DNA of 34,160 nt from Thermoplasmatota archaeon. Its GTDB lineage: Archaea; Thermoplasmatota; Penumbrarchaeia; Penumbrarchaeales; Penumbrarchaeaceae. The stretch is taken from contig JAFGLL010000086.1 of assembly GCA_016928095.1 (NCBI GenBank), forward strand, positions 1-34,160. The letters run 5' to 3'. Positions 25,119 to 32,779 of the stretch are shown piece after piece; position 1 is the stretch's first letter; every line of letters begins with the position of its first letter. Position numbers and translations under genes: made by a program. The notes beneath the pieces were generated by a model. The model was given only the letters and a program-made list of their open reading frames with translations. It searched no databases and was not told the origin of the DNA.

Positions 25119-25652
25119 TCAATCCTCGTCGAAGCGATCGGCGATCCTTCCGAAGGTATCCTCGTCTATCCGTCCATTCAGAAGATCGATGGTCGCCCTT
25201 CTCAGGACCTGACGGTCAAGTTCCCTTCTGGAAATGTATTGATAATGTACTTCCCTACCCTTTGAGTATCTTCTTAAGAGACCGTATGAGACCAACTTCT
25301 TCAGATTGTACATTAAGGTGAACCTGTTCGTGGAGGTCTCTTCGCACAATGACTTCTGGGTGATACCCCGTCTCTTCCTGACGGTGTTGAGTATCCTTTC
25401 CTGAACGGGTGAAAGCTTCATAGTGGCATTCAATGGTGTTCGATCAGGATCGACGGTGTAATAACACCTCCTGCCTTCGTGCATGTCGGACCGGACCTTT
25501 TTCTTCCTCTCGAGATATCTGATGTGATAACGCAGGGTTCCTTCGGGGATACCGAAGATATCCTTTAGGACCGTGAACTGGACACCAGGATATTTCATTA
25601 TATGTTTGTATATGGACCTCCTGATATCATTCTGAAGGATGCGGTCTTCCAC
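25119..25652 (-). CDS. Transcriptional regulator with two winged-helix domains
   Basis: The 177-aa protein starts with GTG behind AGAGGGGG. Residues about 5-70 form one winged helix (RRSIYKHIMKYPGVQFTVLKD then PEGTLRYHIRYLERKKKVRS, with the wing GRRCYYTV). Residues about 80-145 form a second (LSPVQERILNTVRKRRGITQ, NRFTLMYNLKKLVSYGLL, wing GREVHYQYI). The C-terminal DLLNGRIDEDTFGRIADRF resembles a short SHOCT-type helix pair. Such tandem winged-helix proteins are frequent archaeal repressors. It begins 20 nt after the WD40/Tsp3 gene on the same strand, so it is probably in that operon and is the prime candidate for controlling the divergent promoters at 27.9-28.1 kb. Confidence 0.85.
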   Translation of the reverse strand: MEDRILQNDIRRSIYKHIMKYPGVQFTVLKDIFGIPEGTLRYHIRYLERKKKVRSDMHEGRRCYYTVDPDRTPLNATMKLSPVQERILNTVRKRRGITQKSLCEETSTNRFTLMYNLKKLVSYGLLRRYSKGREVHYQYISRRELDRQVLRRATIDLLNGRIDEDTFGRIADRFDED

Positions 25653-25672: not shown

Positions 25673-27904
25673 CTACTTGCCGCCAACCACATTTTCGATG
25701 ATGAAGGTGAACGTCTCCTCCGATATCTCACCGCTGTATCTCTTCCTTGATAGGTCTTCGAGTAGCTCCCCTTCGGGTATGTCATACTCGTCATCATCAA
25801 GCCCTTTCAATACCCCATCACGATACTTACTTATCCTGTACTCATCAGGGTCTGTATCCATGTTGGAGGATCTGCGCCATCTTACCATGATCAATGTGGC
25901 CAGTATAGCAATGACGGACAGGATAAATACAATTATTGGTACATATACCCAAGGCGAGGTGAGAGTGTCATTCACTCCATCTCCATCGGGCCTGTTCTTC
26001 GGGTCGAGAGGATATCTGTCGAGTACCAGTCCGGTCGTTGAATCTTCAGCCCTCATACCCGGATTCCATGAATCCGGATAACCGTCCCCGTCCGTGTCGA
26101 CCGATGCAGCGGGATCCGTGGGAAAAGCGTCAGCTTCGTTCCCGACCCCGTCCTCGTCCGTATCGGCCCATTCGTTCGGGTCTTCGGGGAACCTGTCCGA
26201 GTTGTCCCCGTGTCCGTCCCCGTCCGTATCTATCCATTCCAGAGGGTCCGTCGGGAAATCGTCCAACCTGAGTCCAGTTGTAGAATTCCCCTCGTTCATT
26301 CCCGTGTTCCATCTGTCAGGATATCCGTCGCCGTCAAGGTCCTCGGATGCTGCAATATCGTCCGGGAACCTGTCGGTATTGTCCGGTATCCCATCGCCGT
26401 CACTGTCGGCCCATTCGTTCGGGTCTTCGGGGAACTCATCCGAGTTGTCCCCGTGACCGTCCCCGTCCGTATCTATCCATTCCAGAGGGTCCGTCGGGAA
26501 TTCGTCCAACTTGAGCCCAGTAGTGGAATTCTCCTCGTTCATTCCCATGTTCCATCTGTCAGGATATCCGTCGCCATCAAGGTCCTCGGATGCTGCAATA
26601 TCGTCCGGGAACCTGTCGGTATTGTCCGGTATCCCATCGCCGTCACCGTCGGCCCATTCGCTCGGGTCCAGAGGATAGAGATCGAGCTTCAATCCGGTGG
26701 TTGAATCATCTGCGCTCTTCCCGGGGTTCCAGATATCCGGAAAGCCATCCCCATCCGTATCGATGGAAGCTGCGGGGTCCGTTGGAAAGGCGTCATACTC
26801 ATCGGTAACACCATCGCCATCGATGTCGGCCTCAACATCGGGTGGCTCTATCCATGTGATATCGATGAAATATAAGGTATCGAATGCGATGGCCATCAGG
26901 ACGGAATTGTCGCTTGTAAGTGATATCCCGAGGACATAGTCGGAAAGGTCGATGTGCATATCATTCCTCGGTTCGTTTGGGTCAATGAACTCCACCCTGG
27001 AGTTGTTGGCAACGAAGAAACCATCGCCCCCATTGGCCCATCCCCATCCATTTATCCATATCTCTTCGGAGTTGTTGCGGGTGAATACGGGAGTGTCCTT
27101 ATCAACGTCCCATACCTCAAGGGACAGGTTCCCGATACCAAGTCTGGACCCTTGTTGGTCCCAACGAAGAACATCGGGGGAGAAGGAGTACCCGCCCATA
27201 TGAGAATGGACCGAGTAATCATCGCTGGAGTCCAGGATGTCAACCGAACCCTCATAATCTTCACTACCGAATGACATCTGCCCCACAGCGAGGAGGCCCC
27301 CTTCGGGTTGCCACTCCACGGCCATTTTGTAATTGTTACCAGGCAGGACCGCTCCCATTCGGGTCCAATTTCCTGTCCATATGAGATCGACGATGTTTAT
27401 GTTCGGCACCGCTAGAAGAGACCCGTCCGACTTCCAGCTGATGGAGAATATCTGGGAACCGTATGTCCTTTCCTCGACGAGCGCCCAGGATGGACCTGAA
27501 TATATTTTGAACCAGCCCTCGACATTGTCCCAGTTCTTGCCTGTTGCCACGGCGAGGACCGGTGTGGAGCCAACGGGGCACCACTCCACATCCCAGACCC
27601 AATGACCCGGATGCAGCACGGTCACCATGTACTTTGTGGATATGTTATAGATGATGACACTACCATTCGCCAGACCTATCGCGGCATATTCGTCACCCGG
27701 GGAGATATCGATGCAGAGTATCCTTACGGAATCGTGGTCTATCGTCAGGTTGATGGTCGGGTAAGGATAGGTCTCCGAACTCGAGGTGGTCGTATCCGCC
27801 ATGGTGATATCTTGAACGAAGATCGAAAGGAGCGCTCCAAGAAGTAAAAGAGAAAAGAGCGAACATTTCACGATCCGAAGGCATGAGCTTGAGTAATCTG
27901 ACAT
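25673..27904 (-). CDS. Membrane-anchored WD40-like / Tsp3-repeat surface protein
   Basis: The 743-aa protein has an N-terminal hydrophobic signal (CSLFSLLLLGALLSIFVQDI), then about 330 residues of WD40-like beta-propeller blades (ILCIDISPGDEYAAIGLANG, VWDVEWCPVGSTPVLAVATG, FSISWKSDGSLLAV). About 280 residues of DxDGDG calcium-binding repeats follow (residues about 355-635), then a membrane helix (VYVPIIVFILSVIAILATLIMV) and a cytoplasmic tail, LLEDLSRKRYSGEISEETF, similar to SHOCT domains. The Tsp3 section contains near-identical 81-residue units. The architecture suggests a calcium-stiffened stalk presenting a propeller that binds a ligand outside the cell. It is divergent from the GH97 gene and is followed by the winged-helix gene. 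Confidence 0.9.
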   Translation of the reverse strand: MSDYSSSCLRIVKCSLFSLLLLGALLSIFVQDITMADTTTSSSETYPYPTINLTIDHDSVRILCIDISPGDEYAAIGLANGSVIIYNISTKYMVTVLHPGHWVWDVEWCPVGSTPVLAVATGKNWDNVEGWFKIYSGPSWALVEERTYGSQIFSISWKSDGSLLAVPNINIVDLIWTGNWTRMGAVLPGNNYKMAVEWQPEGGLLAVGQMSFGSEDYEGSVDILDSSDDYSVHSHMGGYSFSPDVLRWDQQGSRLGIGNLSLEVWDVDKDTPVFTRNNSEEIWINGWGWANGGDGFFVANNSRVEFIDPNEPRNDMHIDLSDYVLGISLTSDNSVLMAIAFDTLYFIDITWIEPPDVEADIDGDGVTDEYDAFPTDPAASIDTDGDGFPDIWNPGKSADDSTTGLKLDLYPLDPSEWADGDGDGIPDNTDRFPDDIAASEDLDGDGYPDRWNMGMNEENSTTGLKLDEFPTDPLEWIDTDGDGHGDNSDEFPEDPNEWADSDGDGIPDNTDRFPDDIAASEDLDGDGYPDRWNTGMNEGNSTTGLRLDDFPTDPLEWIDTDGDGHGDNSDRFPEDPNEWADTDEDGVGNEADAFPTDPAASVDTDGDGYPDSWNPGMRAEDSTTGLVLDRYPLDPKNRPDGDGVNDTLTSPWVYVPIIVFILSVIAILATLIMVRWRRSSNMDTDPDEYRISKYRDGVLKGLDDDEYDIPEGELLEDLSRKRYSGEISEETFTFIIENVVGGK
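26171..26656. repeat. Tandem 243-bp repeat within the Tsp3 region
   Basis: Two in-register copies (26171-26413 and 26414-26656) differ at only a limited number of bases, mostly synonymous or conservative, and encode 81 residues each. A third, partial and more diverged unit lies on either side. The period is exactly 81 codons, so it is an intragenic duplication that lengthens the calcium-binding stalk. Confidence 0.9.
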
Positions 27905-27961
27905 AGGCTATCCGATGAGCATGGGTTTTCGGATATAAATCCAGTACAAAGTGTTTTTTCA

Positions 27962-27991
27962 ACATTTCTGGTCAGGACGTGGTATATAATT
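27962..27991 (-). promoter_or_regulatory. Promoter of the WD40/Tsp3 - winged-helix operon with CCAGAAATGT motif
   Basis: On the minus strand the TATA-like AATTATATA (27983-27991) is followed 11 nt later by CCAGAAATGT (27962-27971). The same motif in the same relation to a TATA box drives the divergent GH97 gene, so I read it as a shared operator or core-promoter element near the transcription start. Confidence 0.5.
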
Positions 27992-28054
27992 GTTATGACG
28001 AATTCCCTGCACATGAAGGCATTCCTGTCGATGTGAAAACAAAACGCCATAAAA

Positions 28055-28083
28055 CTTATAAGGTTATGAGAAGCCAGAAATGT
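28055..28083 (+). promoter_or_regulatory. Promoter of the GH97 gene with CCAGAAATGT motif
   Basis: The TATA-like CTTATAAG (28055-28062) is followed about 11-12 nt later by CCAGAAATGT (28074-28083), mirroring the minus-strand promoter. The rest of the 228-bp intergenic region carries no other feature I can name. Confidence 0.5.
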
Positions 28084-28132
28084 AAATGTTCGGCGTGACA
28101 TCCCGGTTATATCCCCAGACCCATGGAGTCAT

Positions 28133-31100
28133 ATGCCTCGGGTAGAGGAAACATCCTGTGAGCGATCCCTATTCGGAGAGTCATTTTCGATATTACTGAT
28201 CATCGTCGTTGTACTCTCCTGTACAGTATGTTTCACTGGACGGATCCAAGACGGCCCAAGAGCTATAGCTATCGATATATCTCCTTCCGAAAAGGATGGC
28301 AGCGATACTAGTGGTCCATCCGAGATAACCGTTTCCTCCCCCGGCGGAAGGACCACTTTCAGACTTATTCTCGGTGGTCCGAACCTCACATACGAGGTAT
28401 GGCTTGGAGGTGAGCGGCTCTTGACCGGTTCGAGATTGGGGCTCTTGCTGGGAGACGGTGACATGATCCCTTCCGGTACGGCTGAACACCTTCGGACCGT
28501 CATGAACACCGTTAAGGAGGAATACACGGTGGCATACGCCGAAGGTTCCCGTTTCGAGGATCACTACAGATATGCCCTGGTAACTCTCAGGGAGAGCCTT
28601 GGCAAGGGGAGGACCTTCGAACTGCATATCAGAGCCTACGACGAGGGTGTCGCTTTCAGGTACGTCGTTCCCGACCAGGAGGGTGTCGGGAGGACGACGA
28701 TCATGGGAGAGGCCACGACCTTCTCCTTCAACGATGACCTTCCATGTTTCGCGGAGTACGGGACGGAAGGGGAATATTCCAGGGTTCAGATCAGCAGGGT
28801 CAGACAGCAATGCGAGGTGCCTCTGGCAGTGGAACTCCCAGATGGACGCTACGTCTCTATCGGTGAAGCCGCTCTTCTGGATCATTCCAGGATGCTGCTG
28901 AAGAACGCTGGCAATGGATCCACCTCCCTTCAGGTGCAGCTCTGCTCGAGGGTTGTTCGGAACCCCGGGTTCGAGACCCCCTGGAGAGTGGTCATCGCCG
29001 GAAATGGTTCCGGGGACCTTATCGAGAACTCCCATATCCTCTATTCCCTTTGCCCGGAGAGCAAACTTAAGGATATTTCATGGATCAGACCCGGGAAGGC
29101 CTTCCGCGATTGTACCCTTACGACCAACGGTTCAAAGGCGGTGATAGATTTCTGCTCCGAGAACGGTCTCCAGTACGTCCATCTTGACGCTGGATGGTAC
29201 GGCAAGGAGTTCGATCCGGGATCTGACGCCAGTTCCGCTTCGGTCCCGGACTTGGATATACCGGAGATAGTCAGATACGGGAAGGATAAAGGGATCGGTG
29301 TCGTACTCTACGTCAACAACCGTTCATTGAGGAAGCAGCTGGACAAGGTCCTTCCGCTCTACCAGGAATGGGGAATAAAAGGTATCAAGTTCGGTTTCAT
29401 GGACGGAAGGACCCAGACCGGGATTAACTTCATTCATTATGCCGTGCAGAAAGCTGCTGAACATGAACTGTTCGTGATAATCCATGATAATTATCGCCCA
29501 ACAGGTCTCACAAGGACCTACCCTAATATCCTATCGGTAGAAGGTGTCAGGGGAAACGAGCACTTTCCGACACCTTATCACAATACTTTACTCCCGTACA
29601 CCAGGTCCGTTTGCGGTCCGATGGATTACACCCCCAGAGCGGTCCCTTACAAAGAACGCACGACATCATGCCATCAGATGGCGCTACCCTTTGTATTTTT
29701 CTCCCCAATGACCTTTTTGTACTGGTATCAGGACCCGATAGCGGTGGCAAGGTCCGGACCGTTCGAGGCCTGGCGGGATCTACCAACGGTCTGGGATGAG
29801 GTGATCTATCCCGATGACATTCCCGGAAGGTATGCTTCTGCATTGAAGAGGAATGGTGACACCTGGTTCTACGGGTTCATCAACGGACCTTCTCCCGCAA
29901 GGGCCGTGGTCGACCTTGCCCCGGTCGGGGAAGGCAGGACATTCGCGGCAACGATCTTCAAGGATGATCACGGGTCCATCGATACGAGAAGGTATCTCGT
30001 GGACAGGAACACGATCATTGACGAGCAGGTGGTTGAGGACGGTGGATCATGCGCCATGATCCGTCCCGCCACGTTGAACGACCTCCGCACCCTTAGCGGG
30101 TATCCTTCCTGGAGCAAGACCTGCACGGAGCTCACGGTGGAAGAAGACAAGGAGATGATGCTGTTCCTGTGCATGCCAGGATCGAACAGATGCAACCTCA
30201 CCTATGATGCTTGGACCGATTCCGACTTCATCTCGTTCGATCCAATGACGGGTACGGTTTCAGGCACTCCGGGAAACGATGACATAGGCAGATATCATTT
30301 CTCGGTCCTGATAAGGTACGACGGGGAACCGATAGGCAGTCTGATGTTCACGATCAATGTTCTCAACACGAACGATCCGCCAATGATAACCGAGCTTCCC
30401 AGATACATAGAGGTCATGCCTGGTGAGGAGCTTCTTGTCGAACCCAGGGCCGAGGACGTGGACCCAACATCCGACAGGTTGATCTGGGATATTGCGGGGG
30501 ATGTATCTTTCGTGAGCATAGACCCATTGACAGGAATATTGCGGGGAACCCCCACCCGCGACGATATCGGGACACATCTTATTGAAGTGAGTGTGGATGA
30601 CGGGAACGGCGGCACATGCACGAGGGAGATGATCTTTCATGTCAACGACACATCGATACAAGAGAAGGTCACGACGTTGGATCGTGTGATCTTTCTGTGC
30701 GAGGATGTCCCCTTCGAGATCGATCTGCGGGAGGAACTGATGCCCGAATGGGAAGCCCATGAAGGACTGATCATCGAGAAGATGCCCGGATTCGTCAGCA
30801 TCTTCGGAGATGGTCCCATATTTCGAGGTATCCCGACCCAGTCGGATATCGGCGTCCACGAGATCTTGATACGCATGAAGACCGAGGGTGAACCCGATGA
30901 GATCGTCCAGTTCAGGATGATCGTCATCGGGACCAACGACCCTCCGGTGTTCGTCAACTCCTCGATCTTCCTCATGACCGCTGTGGGGGAGCATATTGAC
31001 CTCGAGTTCGTTGTTGACGACGAGGACGATGCGAGAGAGGTCCTAACATGGTCCCTGTGGCCCTGCGATGATTTCTTGGCTCTGGACATGAAGGCCGGAA

Positions 31101-31546
31101 CCCTTCAGGGGACCCCGCTCTCTGACGACAAGGGGGTCCACAGGATGGTGCTCAAGGTGACCGATCCCGGGGGAGGAGTGGCAGAGATGGAAGTGACATT
31201 GCTTGTTCTGGCCGAAGGCTCCTTGCTGTCCATTTTCGATGATCGTCCGATCCTGAAACCTAACATAGGTTCTAACGCAACCGGAGTATCTTGCATTCCT
31301 TTGACCATGGTCCGGGTAAGGATAGGTTCCGGCGAGGTGGTGGCGGTCCCAATGACCGATGGGATTGAGCGACTTCTTTCCGGGAACGGGACCTCACCCG
31401 GGGTTATCGATGACAGGCCCGTGATAGAAGAGAAGAGCGATGCGTGGGAGCTTATCCTCCCTCTCTTTGTTATCTCCTTGACAATATGCCTCTTGATGGT
31501 CCTGGTCCTCAACCATTCCGGGAAAGCCCGATCGAAGAAAGGGTAG
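28133..31546 (+). CDS. GH97-family glycosidase with cadherin-like repeats and C-terminal membrane anchor
   Basis: The 1,137-aa protein has an N-terminal signal or anchor helix (SILLIIVVVLSCTVCFTG), the GH97 N-domain (SPGGRTTFRLILGGPNLTYEVW; AYDEGVAFRYVVP), the TIM barrel with GLQYVHLDAGWYG, GIKGIKFGFMDGRTQ and the diagnostic HDNYRPTGLTRTYPN then EGVRGNE, and a GH97 C-domain (to about residue 650). Four immunoglobulin/cadherin-like repeats follow (FISFDPMTGTVSGTP; FVSIDPLTGILRGTP; IFRGIPTQSDIG; LDMKAGTLQGTP), then a membrane helix (LILPLFVISLTICLLMVLVL, about 1106-1125) and a basic tail. GH97 enzymes are alpha-glucosidases or alpha-galactosidases, found mainly in Bacteroidetes; which one this is cannot be told without alignment. 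It would work outside the cell on alpha-linked oligosaccharides. Confidence 0.92.
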   Translation: MPRVEETSCERSLFGESFSILLIIVVVLSCTVCFTGRIQDGPRAIAIDISPSEKDGSDTSGPSEITVSSPGGRTTFRLILGGPNLTYEVWLGGERLLTGSRLGLLLGDGDMIPSGTAEHLRTVMNTVKEEYTVAYAEGSRFEDHYRYALVTLRESLGKGRTFELHIRAYDEGVAFRYVVPDQEGVGRTTIMGEATTFSFNDDLPCFAEYGTEGEYSRVQISRVRQQCEVPLAVELPDGRYVSIGEAALLDHSRMLLKNAGNGSTSLQVQLCSRVVRNPGFETPWRVVIAGNGSGDLIENSHILYSLCPESKLKDISWIRPGKAFRDCTLTTNGSKAVIDFCSENGLQYVHLDAGWYGKEFDPGSDASSASVPDLDIPEIVRYGKDKGIGVVLYVNNRSLRKQLDKVLPLYQEWGIKGIKFGFMDGRTQTGINFIHYAVQKAAEHELFVIIHDNYRPTGLTRTYPNILSVEGVRGNEHFPTPYHNTLLPYTRSVCGPMDYTPRAVPYKERTTSCHQMALPFVFFSPMTFLYWYQDPIAVARSGPFEAWRDLPTVWDEVIYPDDIPGRYASALKRNGDTWFYGFINGPSPARAVVDLAPVGEGRTFAATIFKDDHGSIDTRRYLVDRNTIIDEQVVEDGGSCAMIRPATLNDLRTLSGYPSWSKTCTELTVEEDKEMMLFLCMPGSNRCNLTYDAWTDSDFISFDPMTGTVSGTPGNDDIGRYHFSVLIRYDGEPIGSLMFTINVLNTNDPPMITELPRYIEVMPGEELLVEPRAEDVDPTSDRLIWDIAGDVSFVSIDPLTGILRGTPTRDDIGTHLIEVSVDDGNGGTCTREMIFHVNDTSIQEKVTTLDRVIFLCEDVPFEIDLREELMPEWEAHEGLIIEKMPGFVSIFGDGPIFRGIPTQSDIGVHEILIRMKTEGEPDEIVQFRMIVIGTNDPPVFVNSSIFLMTAVGEHIDLEFVVDDEDDAREVLTWSLWPCDDFLALDMKAGTLQGTPLSDDKGVHRMVLKVTDPGGGVAEMEVTLLVLAEGSLLSIFDDRPILKPNIGSNATGVSCIPLTMVRVRIGSGEVVAVPMTDGIERLLSGNGTSPGVIDDRPVIEEKSDAWELILPLFVISLTICLLMVLVLNHSGKARSKKG

Positions 31547-31558
31547 TGGCCCTATCCT

Positions 31559-32779
31559 TTATTCGACACATAGCTCGACGATCATCTCGAGGGGAAGCAG
31601 CCCAGTTTCCACCCCGGACATCCTCGGGATGTAGTGGGCCGCCTTACCGGAATCCGTTCCGACCCTCTCGATCCCTATGCTGCGAAGCGGTGTAACGACC
31701 ATGCAGGTGTCGTTGTAGATCTCGATCCCCGCATCGATGAGCACCCCCCGTTCGTGTTCTTCCATTGCTCCAAGGATCGAACGATTGGTGTAGACGATAA
31801 TTCTCTTACCCATCTTCAGCTTCCTCCCCTTGAGGGCGCCCGACAACCGGTCGAACTCCGATATCCCGAACTGGGGACACCCGAGGACGAATATGTCAAT
31901 ATCCTTTGCAGGGGCAGGATACAATCCATCCTTAAGGTCGTCCAGCTCCTCGGGCGTAAGGGTTATCCTTTCAACGATGTGCTTATCCGTGTAGGCTTTC
32001 TGGACCAGGTCACGTTCGGGTGTCATATCCAGGATATGGAAGATGGCGTGTCCGCCCTTGGCGGCCATTGCCGCACCCAGGTGCTTCAATGATCCACGGC
32101 TCACGTCCTTCTTGATCCCTTTATAAACGGGTATGATCGAGTTGAAGTGCTTTCCGATATAGGCACCCAGCAGATCGAAATGGTGTGCCTTCATGGAGCC
32201 ATCGATCGTTACTTCCATGGAGGGCATCCTGGGTCCGTCGAGGTGCATCCCCCAGACCGGGGTCTTCCCAAGGATCGCGGATGCAAGCGCTGAGACACCG
32301 CTTTCCCGGTTGGTCCTTGCTCCGACCATGGAGTTCGCGTAGATGACAGCGTTGGATTCGCTCCAAGCGAGGTGGTCGCCCATCCTTACAGATTGAACGC
32401 TCTGCGGTGTTTCGTAAGGTATGCATGAGCAGGTGATATCGATGCCAAGCTTGGAGTACAGTTCTATTATCATAAACTGTTTTTTTGCGAAATCAGGCGG
32501 ATAGCCTATACTTTCCCAGAGTTCCAGGTCCATGCCAGCCGGGTTGAGACTGGTCGGGACCGTGACCTTGGCACCCATCCGGTTTAGTTCCTCCAATAAC
32601 CTGATGAGGGCTTCCCCCGCCGTATGATATGATACCCCAGACACATGGGCTGAAACTATTGGATAGAAACCTTCGGAACTCTCGAGGTCCCCGAGGTTTA
32701 CGAGTACCTTCATCGCGAAGGCCTTCGCCTCACCCTCGGACCCGGCCAGGATGGCTTCCTCTTCATTGGTCAGATACAT
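31559..32779 (-). CDS. Aconitase X catalytic domain; phosphomevalonate dehydratase large subunit
   Basis: AcnX (DUF521) proteins in archaea form, with a small DUF126 subunit, the 4Fe-4S phosphomevalonate dehydratase of the archaeal mevalonate pathway for isoprenoid lipids. The 406-aa protein starts MYLTNEEEAILAG and shows SAHVSGVSYHTAGEA, TSLNPAGMD, CSCIPYETP, NSMVGARTNRESG, LGCPQFGISEF and the C-terminal NDTCMVVTPL; the three Cys segments are the expected cluster ligands. A cis-3-hydroxyproline dehydratase is the main alternative, but bacterial-type members differ and the archaeal context favours mevalonate. No small-subunit gene is visible in the window. A TATA-like AGGTTAATAGG (about 32805-32815) lies at leaderless distance upstream. 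Confidence 0.92.
   Translation of the reverse strand: MYLTNEEEAILAGSEGEAKAFAMKVLVNLGDLESSEGFYPIVSAHVSGVSYHTAGEALIRLLEELNRMGAKVTVPTSLNPAGMDLELWESIGYPPDFAKKQFMIIELYSKLGIDITCSCIPYETPQSVQSVRMGDHLAWSESNAVIYANSMVGARTNRESGVSALASAILGKTPVWGMHLDGPRMPSMEVTIDGSMKAHHFDLLGAYIGKHFNSIIPVYKGIKKDVSRGSLKHLGAAMAAKGGHAIFHILDMTPERDLVQKAYTDKHIVERITLTPEELDDLKDGLYPAPAKDIDIFVLGCPQFGISEFDRLSGALKGRKLKMGKRIIVYTNRSILGAMEEHERGVLIDAGIEIYNDTCMVVTPLRSIGIERVGTDSGKAAHYIPRMSGVETGLLPLEMIVELCVE

Follow-up and report, generated by a model that had tools for sequence, protein, structure and literature searches.

Are a GH97 glycoside hydrolase gene and a divergently transcribed surface-protein operon of a Thermoplasmatota archaeon controlled by one and the same regulator? 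This question is raised by a gap of 228 bp (27905-28132) in the window, i.e., the whole stretch of 34,160 nucleotides analyzed here, which separates a 743-aa ORF (minus strand, start at 27904) from the GH97 ORF (plus strand, start at 28133). The earlier note described in this gap a 10-bp motif mirrored behind two TATA-like boxes, and proposed that the winged-helix (wHTH) protein encoded in the operon of the 743-aa ORF acts on both sides.

The GH97 gene (28133-31546, plus strand) encodes a glycoside hydrolase with Ig-like domains, for which all Pfam scores lie above cut-off (GH97_N 142.9, catalytic domain 191.7, and GH97_C 36.9 bits). Hydropathy indicates an N-terminal signal/TM segment and a C-terminal TM segment that leaves an 11-aa tail, so the enzyme is probably surface-anchored. 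For this archaeal GH97, with its Ig-like repeats and its membrane anchor at the C-terminus, searches of the nine other genomes of the order yielded no full-length relative; the best match, in G003, was a partial one (33%). There is no wHTH gene behind it, and the convergent neighbor (31559-32779, minus strand) encodes an aconitase X (AcnX, PF04412, 428 bits). On the other side of the gap, the 743-aa surface protein (25673-27904, minus strand), our candidate sensor, carries according to domain searches and hydropathy a signal, WD40-like repeats, DxDxDG-rich Tsp3-type repeats, a single C-terminal TM segment, and a cytoplasmic tail of 69 aa ending in a helical hairpin. The wHTH gene (25119-25652, minus strand) starts 20 bp downstream of it and encodes the candidate regulator of the two operators. 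Its product matches HTH_HVO_0163_N (PF24266) with 47.9 bits (gathering cut-off 31), as well as HTH_24, and scores 39.6 bits against the ArsR/SmtB metalloregulator model NF033788 (cut-off 55). A structure model comprises two wHTH units in tandem and a C-terminal helical hairpin; Foldseek searches with this model returned generic winged-helix neighbors (TFIIIC, RPC62, ScpB, and MarR) with TM-scores mostly of 0.3-0.4, which are uninformative about function.

Within the gap, the reported motif is exact: CCAGAAATGT occurs at 28074-28083 on the plus strand and at 27962-27971 on the minus strand, with 102 bp between the copies and an equal distance from the TATA-like box in both arms (TTATA-N13). The mirror is more extensive than the earlier note stated, as a CATAA block and a second TATA-like box are also common to the arms, both of which read CATAA-N3-TTATA-N13-CCAGAAATGT-N23-TTATATCC. 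In the GH97 arm, alignment of the two arms, together with the class alignment presented below, places the BRE-like CATAA block at 28048-28052, TATA box 1 (TTATAAG) at 28056-28062, and the second TATA-like box (TTATATCC) at 28107-28114; the candidate GH97 operator at 28074-28083 divides into a CCAG core (28074-28077) and the bases AAATGT (28078-28083). Arm alignment, spacing comparison, and pattern scans similarly place, in the sensor-operon arm, CATAA at 27993-27997, TATA box 1 (TTATATA) at 27983-27989, the candidate operator of the sensor/wHTH operon at 27962-27971 (CCAG core 27968-27971, AAATGT 27962-27967), and TTATATCC at 27931-27938. Folded about the center at 28022/28023, the arms align without gaps over ~95 bp each (28031-28125 versus 28014-27920). 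The blocks ATGTG, CATAA, TTATA, CCAGAAATGT, TTATATCC, and ACCCATG are in register, while the spacers between them are dissimilar. The ungapped inverted-repeat score is 24.6, versus a maximum of 16.4 among 300 dinucleotide shuffles; under a stricter mismatch penalty, one of the 300 shuffles equaled it.

Is the 10-mer itself the functional unit? Its own genome (2.8 Mb, 124 contigs) contains five exact copies of CCAGAAATGT, which approximates chance expectation, and the three copies outside the window have no TATA box at matching spacing. Thus, the 10-mer itself is not a general promoter element, and we rejected it as a genome-wide one. Allowing three mismatches, CCAGAAATGT-N23-TTATATCC has 30 matches in 10 genomes, versus 12 for reversed controls; three extra matches in the genome of the window did not look like members of a regulon and were discarded. 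When the intergenic DNA was compared with eight genomes of the family, it matched the window alone and none of the seven others. In the nearest homologous operon (G005:C46, from another genus), a TATA-like box is followed by CCAGACATGT, so that the motif does have a counterpart in relatives, as the earlier note would require. What is strongly enriched, in a single class of genes, is a TATA-CCAG core; rather than being private to the two promoters of the window, the element belongs to this class, and the 10-mer is a local variant of the core.

The class in question consists of operons in which a surface-protein gene is followed by a wHTH gene of one subfamily, as is the case for 25673-27904 and 25119-25652. 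Relatives of the wHTH protein are present in all 10 genomes of the order, and a subfamily profile shows a clear break between members (E < 1e-50, 174-191 aa) and remaining wHTH genes (E > 1e-31). All 15 subfamily genes of the order lie directly 3' of a gene for a large membrane-anchored surface protein on the same strand, with gaps of -11 to +38 bp and partners of 504-1283 aa as far as the sequence extends; the remaining wHTH genes are segments of long ORFs, solitary, or otherwise arranged. The ectodomains of the partners are mutually unrelated (NosD/beta-helix, BNR, laminin-G, DUF3160, and PKD/Ig), and every partner has a C-terminal TM segment and a tail of 66-141 aa with a hairpin-like end. 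This tail end aligns with the C-terminus of the wHTH proteins in a profile comparison (hhalign probability 92.7%). Neither the surface proteins nor the wHTH proteins have a SHOCT match in Pfam at E 0.001, the likeness to SHOCT being one seen by eye. A scan of genome contigs with a subset of the alignment returned four loci of genomes already in the set and one distant match in Halovenus, and the named records are MAGs of Ca. Thermoplasmatota. The 743-aa protein and its wHTH neighbor are one of many such pairs of surface protein and regulator, which together form a large family. Long ORFs of ~800-900 aa (e.g., L130:13414-15840, L129:6628-9072, L137:2626-5025, and L201:3272-5722, among others) hold tandem wHTH units of the same type within one protein; they lack a CCAG promoter and are possibly one-component fusions of the sensor/regulator pair.

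The arrangement of a TATA box, ~12 nt, and CCAG was first seen 5' of these surface-protein/wHTH operons, and unaligned motif discovery in 13 upstream regions recovered both CCAG and its position relative to TATA. Defining membership as CCAG 15-19 nt from the start of a TATA-like box 5' of the gene, an arrangement present in both promoters of the window, we found it within 200 bp upstream for 11 of the 13 promoters of the set (GH97 included), versus 12 of 751 other genes, the background being ~1.1 Mb of sampled sequence in which genes were called mechanically. When 13 genes were drawn at random 20,000 times, none of the 256 tetramers exceeded a count of 5. CCAG stands at the equivalent position in each of the 12 subfamily operons of the order whose upstream DNA is readable, and is lacking at more distant wHTH genes. 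The mirrored motif is thus part of a conserved promoter signature of surface-protein/wHTH operons.

The two promoters of the window were also ranked by profiles built from 11 operons, all outside the window. With the core profile (TATA to CCAG+10), the GH97 promoter ranks first and that of the 743-aa sensor operon third among 753 unseen promoters; a narrower profile ranks them first and fifth, and the widest one, which includes a downstream CAKAAC, 29th of 753 and second, respectively. Leave-one-out recovery succeeds for most operons, not all (L071 and L078 are poor throughout, and L079 is poor with core profiles), and a further caveat is that some of the sites were chosen by eye. The downstream element, CAKAAC(CCC)TTTA, is the second conserved element of the class and begins 21-22 bp past CCAG, or two helical turns. 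CAKAAC with TTTA is found in 6 of 11 class promoters versus 1 of 342 others (the promoters concerned being L073, L074, L075, L076, L077, L078, and L079). As CAKAAC is not universal, it is not used to define membership in the class; its absence from both arms in the window, like the rank of 29 for GH97 with the widest profile, does count against the reading proposed here. CATAA before TATA is unspecific by itself, occurring in 67 of 342 other promoters. The top unseen promoter with the widest profile precedes a 1048-aa surface protein (L149:324, i.e., G000:C1:324, plus strand), with CCAT replacing CCAG.

Such a fixed position invites another explanation, namely that CCAG is a core-promoter element of the class and that a general factor, whether an alternative TFB or RNA polymerase at the promoter-proximal position near -10, reads it instead of the wHTH protein. 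The distance between CCAG and TATA is indeed fixed in nearly all members, and archaeal promoters do have a promoter-proximal element (PPE) at about -10 (PMC5316973). However, the PPE as known is rich in A/T and occurs across promoters in general (PMC5316973), whereas CCAG contains G and C and is limited to GH97 and to operons with a wHTH gene of one subfamily; its frequency at the TATA distance in other genes, the 12 of 751 given above or ~2%, is background. We thus consider a general factor unlikely.

If CCAG belongs with the wHTH subfamily, it should follow this subfamily elsewhere. Among the 390 genomes of the phylum that were searched, a single one outside the order, G077 from the same class, has the subfamily. 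All four of its surface-protein/wHTH operons with readable upstream DNA carry TATA-N-CCAG (e.g., CATAAAGGTTAAATATAATTAACTAGCCAG), versus 1 of 152 other genes of the G077 test set. A wider scan for CANAANNNTTWWATA-N11-CCAG, allowing one mismatch, in all 12 genomes of the class returned 27 places, versus 10 for the reversed pattern. These include the known operons and further intergenic places. One of the latter (G077:C58) precedes a masked gene with a subfamily wHTH gene behind it. Another (G002:C269) precedes a surface protein present as its 5' portion, the end of which matches the start of a truncated partner on another contig (93% over 43 aa), and a third (G005:C226) precedes a secreted repeat protein cut at the contig end. 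Several of the remaining matches fall within ORFs and resemble chance hits. Two more intergenic copies occur in other settings. In G077:C156, a perfect CCAG promoter precedes the gene of a 960-aa surface protein with a hairpin tail (L277, 7966-10848, minus strand) that is not directly followed by a subfamily wHTH gene; this protein is a possible orphan sensor. In G077:C126, a good copy of the signature (L283:10857-10886, GCCAGATATTTTG) is followed by no ORF.

These results bear on two claims of the earlier note. First, it had judged chance an improbable source of the mirror. The frequency of the exact 10-mer in the genome would suit a chance repeat, but the shuffle test, the enrichment in the class, the ranking of held-out promoters, and the test outside the order all contradict it, and we give it almost no credence. 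Second, the co-encoded winged-helix protein stands as the best candidate regulator, as CCAG accompanies its subfamily in 12 of 12 operons within the order and 4 of 4 outside, and is lacking at more distant wHTH genes.

Would the mirror also be informative about common regulation? It could have arisen by inverted duplication of one promoter, in which case it would say nothing on this point. The ~95-bp ungapped alignment is what such an event would leave. However, the GH97 and 743-aa promoters are identical at 45 of 86 aligned positions, a value also covered by pairs of unrelated promoters from the class (mean 34, sd 6, maximum 50 excluding an ortholog pair). In addition, the conserved blocks are elements of the class and the spacers are unlike. 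The mirror is therefore mostly the class signature, duplication is not needed to account for it, and we regard this origin as quite improbable.

What sets the two arms apart from other class members is AAATGT, the six bases after CCAG, which are identical in both. Only one further pair of the 136 compared agrees at all six positions, and it consists of orthologs of two congeneric species; the nearest homologous operon (G005:C46) has ACATGT, and a paralog at G000:C19 has ATATGG. If CCAG were the common core and the following bases conferred the specificity of each regulator, as we infer, the AAATGT pattern would fit expectation. Its identity in the two arms thus suggests a single regulator for GH97 and the sensor operon. 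Across the class, operator similarity correlates weakly with wHTH similarity (r 0.28, p 0.07), so that the step to a same regulator remains one of interpretation. Of the proposal that one regulator serves both genes, the element shared by the two promoters is observed, and the wHTH protein is its presumed reader.

We consider it probable that the CCAG signature is bound by the tandem wHTH protein, acting as an autoregulator and as a co-regulator of GH97, with the 743-aa protein as sensor. The signature of surface-protein/regulator operons in Ca. Thermoplasmatota would read approximately CATAA-N3-TTWWATA-N11-CCAG. The tandem wHTH protein (25119-25652) would bind there, recognizing CCAG as core together with the AAATGT specific to this variant, and thereby regulate its own sensor operon together with the divergent, surface-anchored GH97. 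The 743-aa TM protein would relay an extracellular signal, probably a glycan, through its cytoplasmic tail, whose terminal hairpin appears to be of the same kind as that of the wHTH protein.

Archaeal TATA boxes are centered near -27 (PMC5316973). On this basis, the predicted position of CCAG is about -12 to -9, downstream of TATA and upstream of the transcription start, which itself is expected at ~28086 (plus strand) and ~27959 (minus strand), with leaders of ~50 nt. The sequence GGAG at 28124-28127, a possible Shine-Dalgarno of GH97, fits such a leadered mRNA. Alternatively, the second TATA-like box may set the start, in which case CCAG would be an activator site near -55 and transcripts would be leaderless or short-leadered. 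TTATATCC is equidistant in the two arms, and its distances to the start codons downstream (26 bp for GH97, 34 bp for the sensor) are typical of short leaders. Against this, box 2 in the window is not preceded by CATAA or an A-rich BRE, conservation across the class is higher for box 1 than for box 2, several relatives have Shine-Dalgarno-like leaders, and the GGAG before GH97 suits a leadered mRNA. We therefore hold a start set by box 2 to be rather unlikely, while giving it appreciable weight. With the start set by box 1, RNA polymerase would have to compete with a regulator located between TATA and this start. Pyrococcus TrmBL1 represses from downstream of TATA and activates from upstream (PMC4706686). 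By analogy, the position of CCAG downstream of TATA would favor repression by the wHTH protein, relieved when substrate is sensed.

The kind of system, i.e., a local autoregulator with a shared divergent operator and a membrane-protein partner, is known in outline. TrmBL1 and the Thermococcales glycolytic motif (TGM) of Pyrococcus furiosus also combine an archaeal wHTH protein with an operator whose position with respect to TATA is defined, control sugar-related genes, and can serve divergent genes (PMC4706686). However, the TGM is a palindrome, TATCAC-N5-GTGATA (PMC4706686), whereas the element of the window, CCAGAAATGT, is non-palindromic, with a CCAG core at a fixed TATA distance; moreover, TrmBL1 is a global cytoplasmic sugar sensor, whereas our candidate is paired with a surface protein. 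As for the protein itself, its N-terminal domain passes the Pfam cut-offs of HVO_0163-type and ArsR-like wHTH domains (PF24266, PF12840), but it differs from these in its tandem second wHTH, its C-terminal hairpin, and its fixed place behind a surface-protein gene, and it falls under the NCBIfam cut-off for ArsR.

In Bacteroidota polysaccharide loci, where GH97 is typical, hybrid two-component and anti-sigma systems couple a surface sensor to a cytoplasmic regulator beside glycoside-hydrolase genes. The window presents the same layout, but with an archaeal TATA promoter and unrelated proteins; neither a kinase nor a response regulator nor a sigma factor was detected in the pair. A limited literature search found no description of the pair family or of the TATA-CCAG signature.

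More broadly, the locus may be one instance of a widely paralogous mode of surface sensing in Ca. Thermoplasmatota. Exchangeable ectodomains (beta-helix/NosD, BNR, laminin-G, WD40/Tsp3, PQQ propeller, and PKD/Ig), followed by a TM anchor and a C-terminal hairpin, would each signal to a dedicated, hairpin-sharing tandem wHTH protein that regulates its own operon through TATA-N12-CCAG with paralog-specific flanks, GH97 having been recruited as an output. We advance this generalization tentatively, as it seems to us about evenly balanced between right and wrong. To our knowledge, archaeal extracellular sensing outside two-component systems is poorly known, and we know of few operators for uncultured Thermoplasmatota. 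As the signature is tied to one regulator subfamily, the link between regulator and operator can now be tested in vitro. The TATA-CCAG signature points to a family of paired surface and DNA-binding proteins and offers a route to its output genes, of which GH97 is the first candidate.
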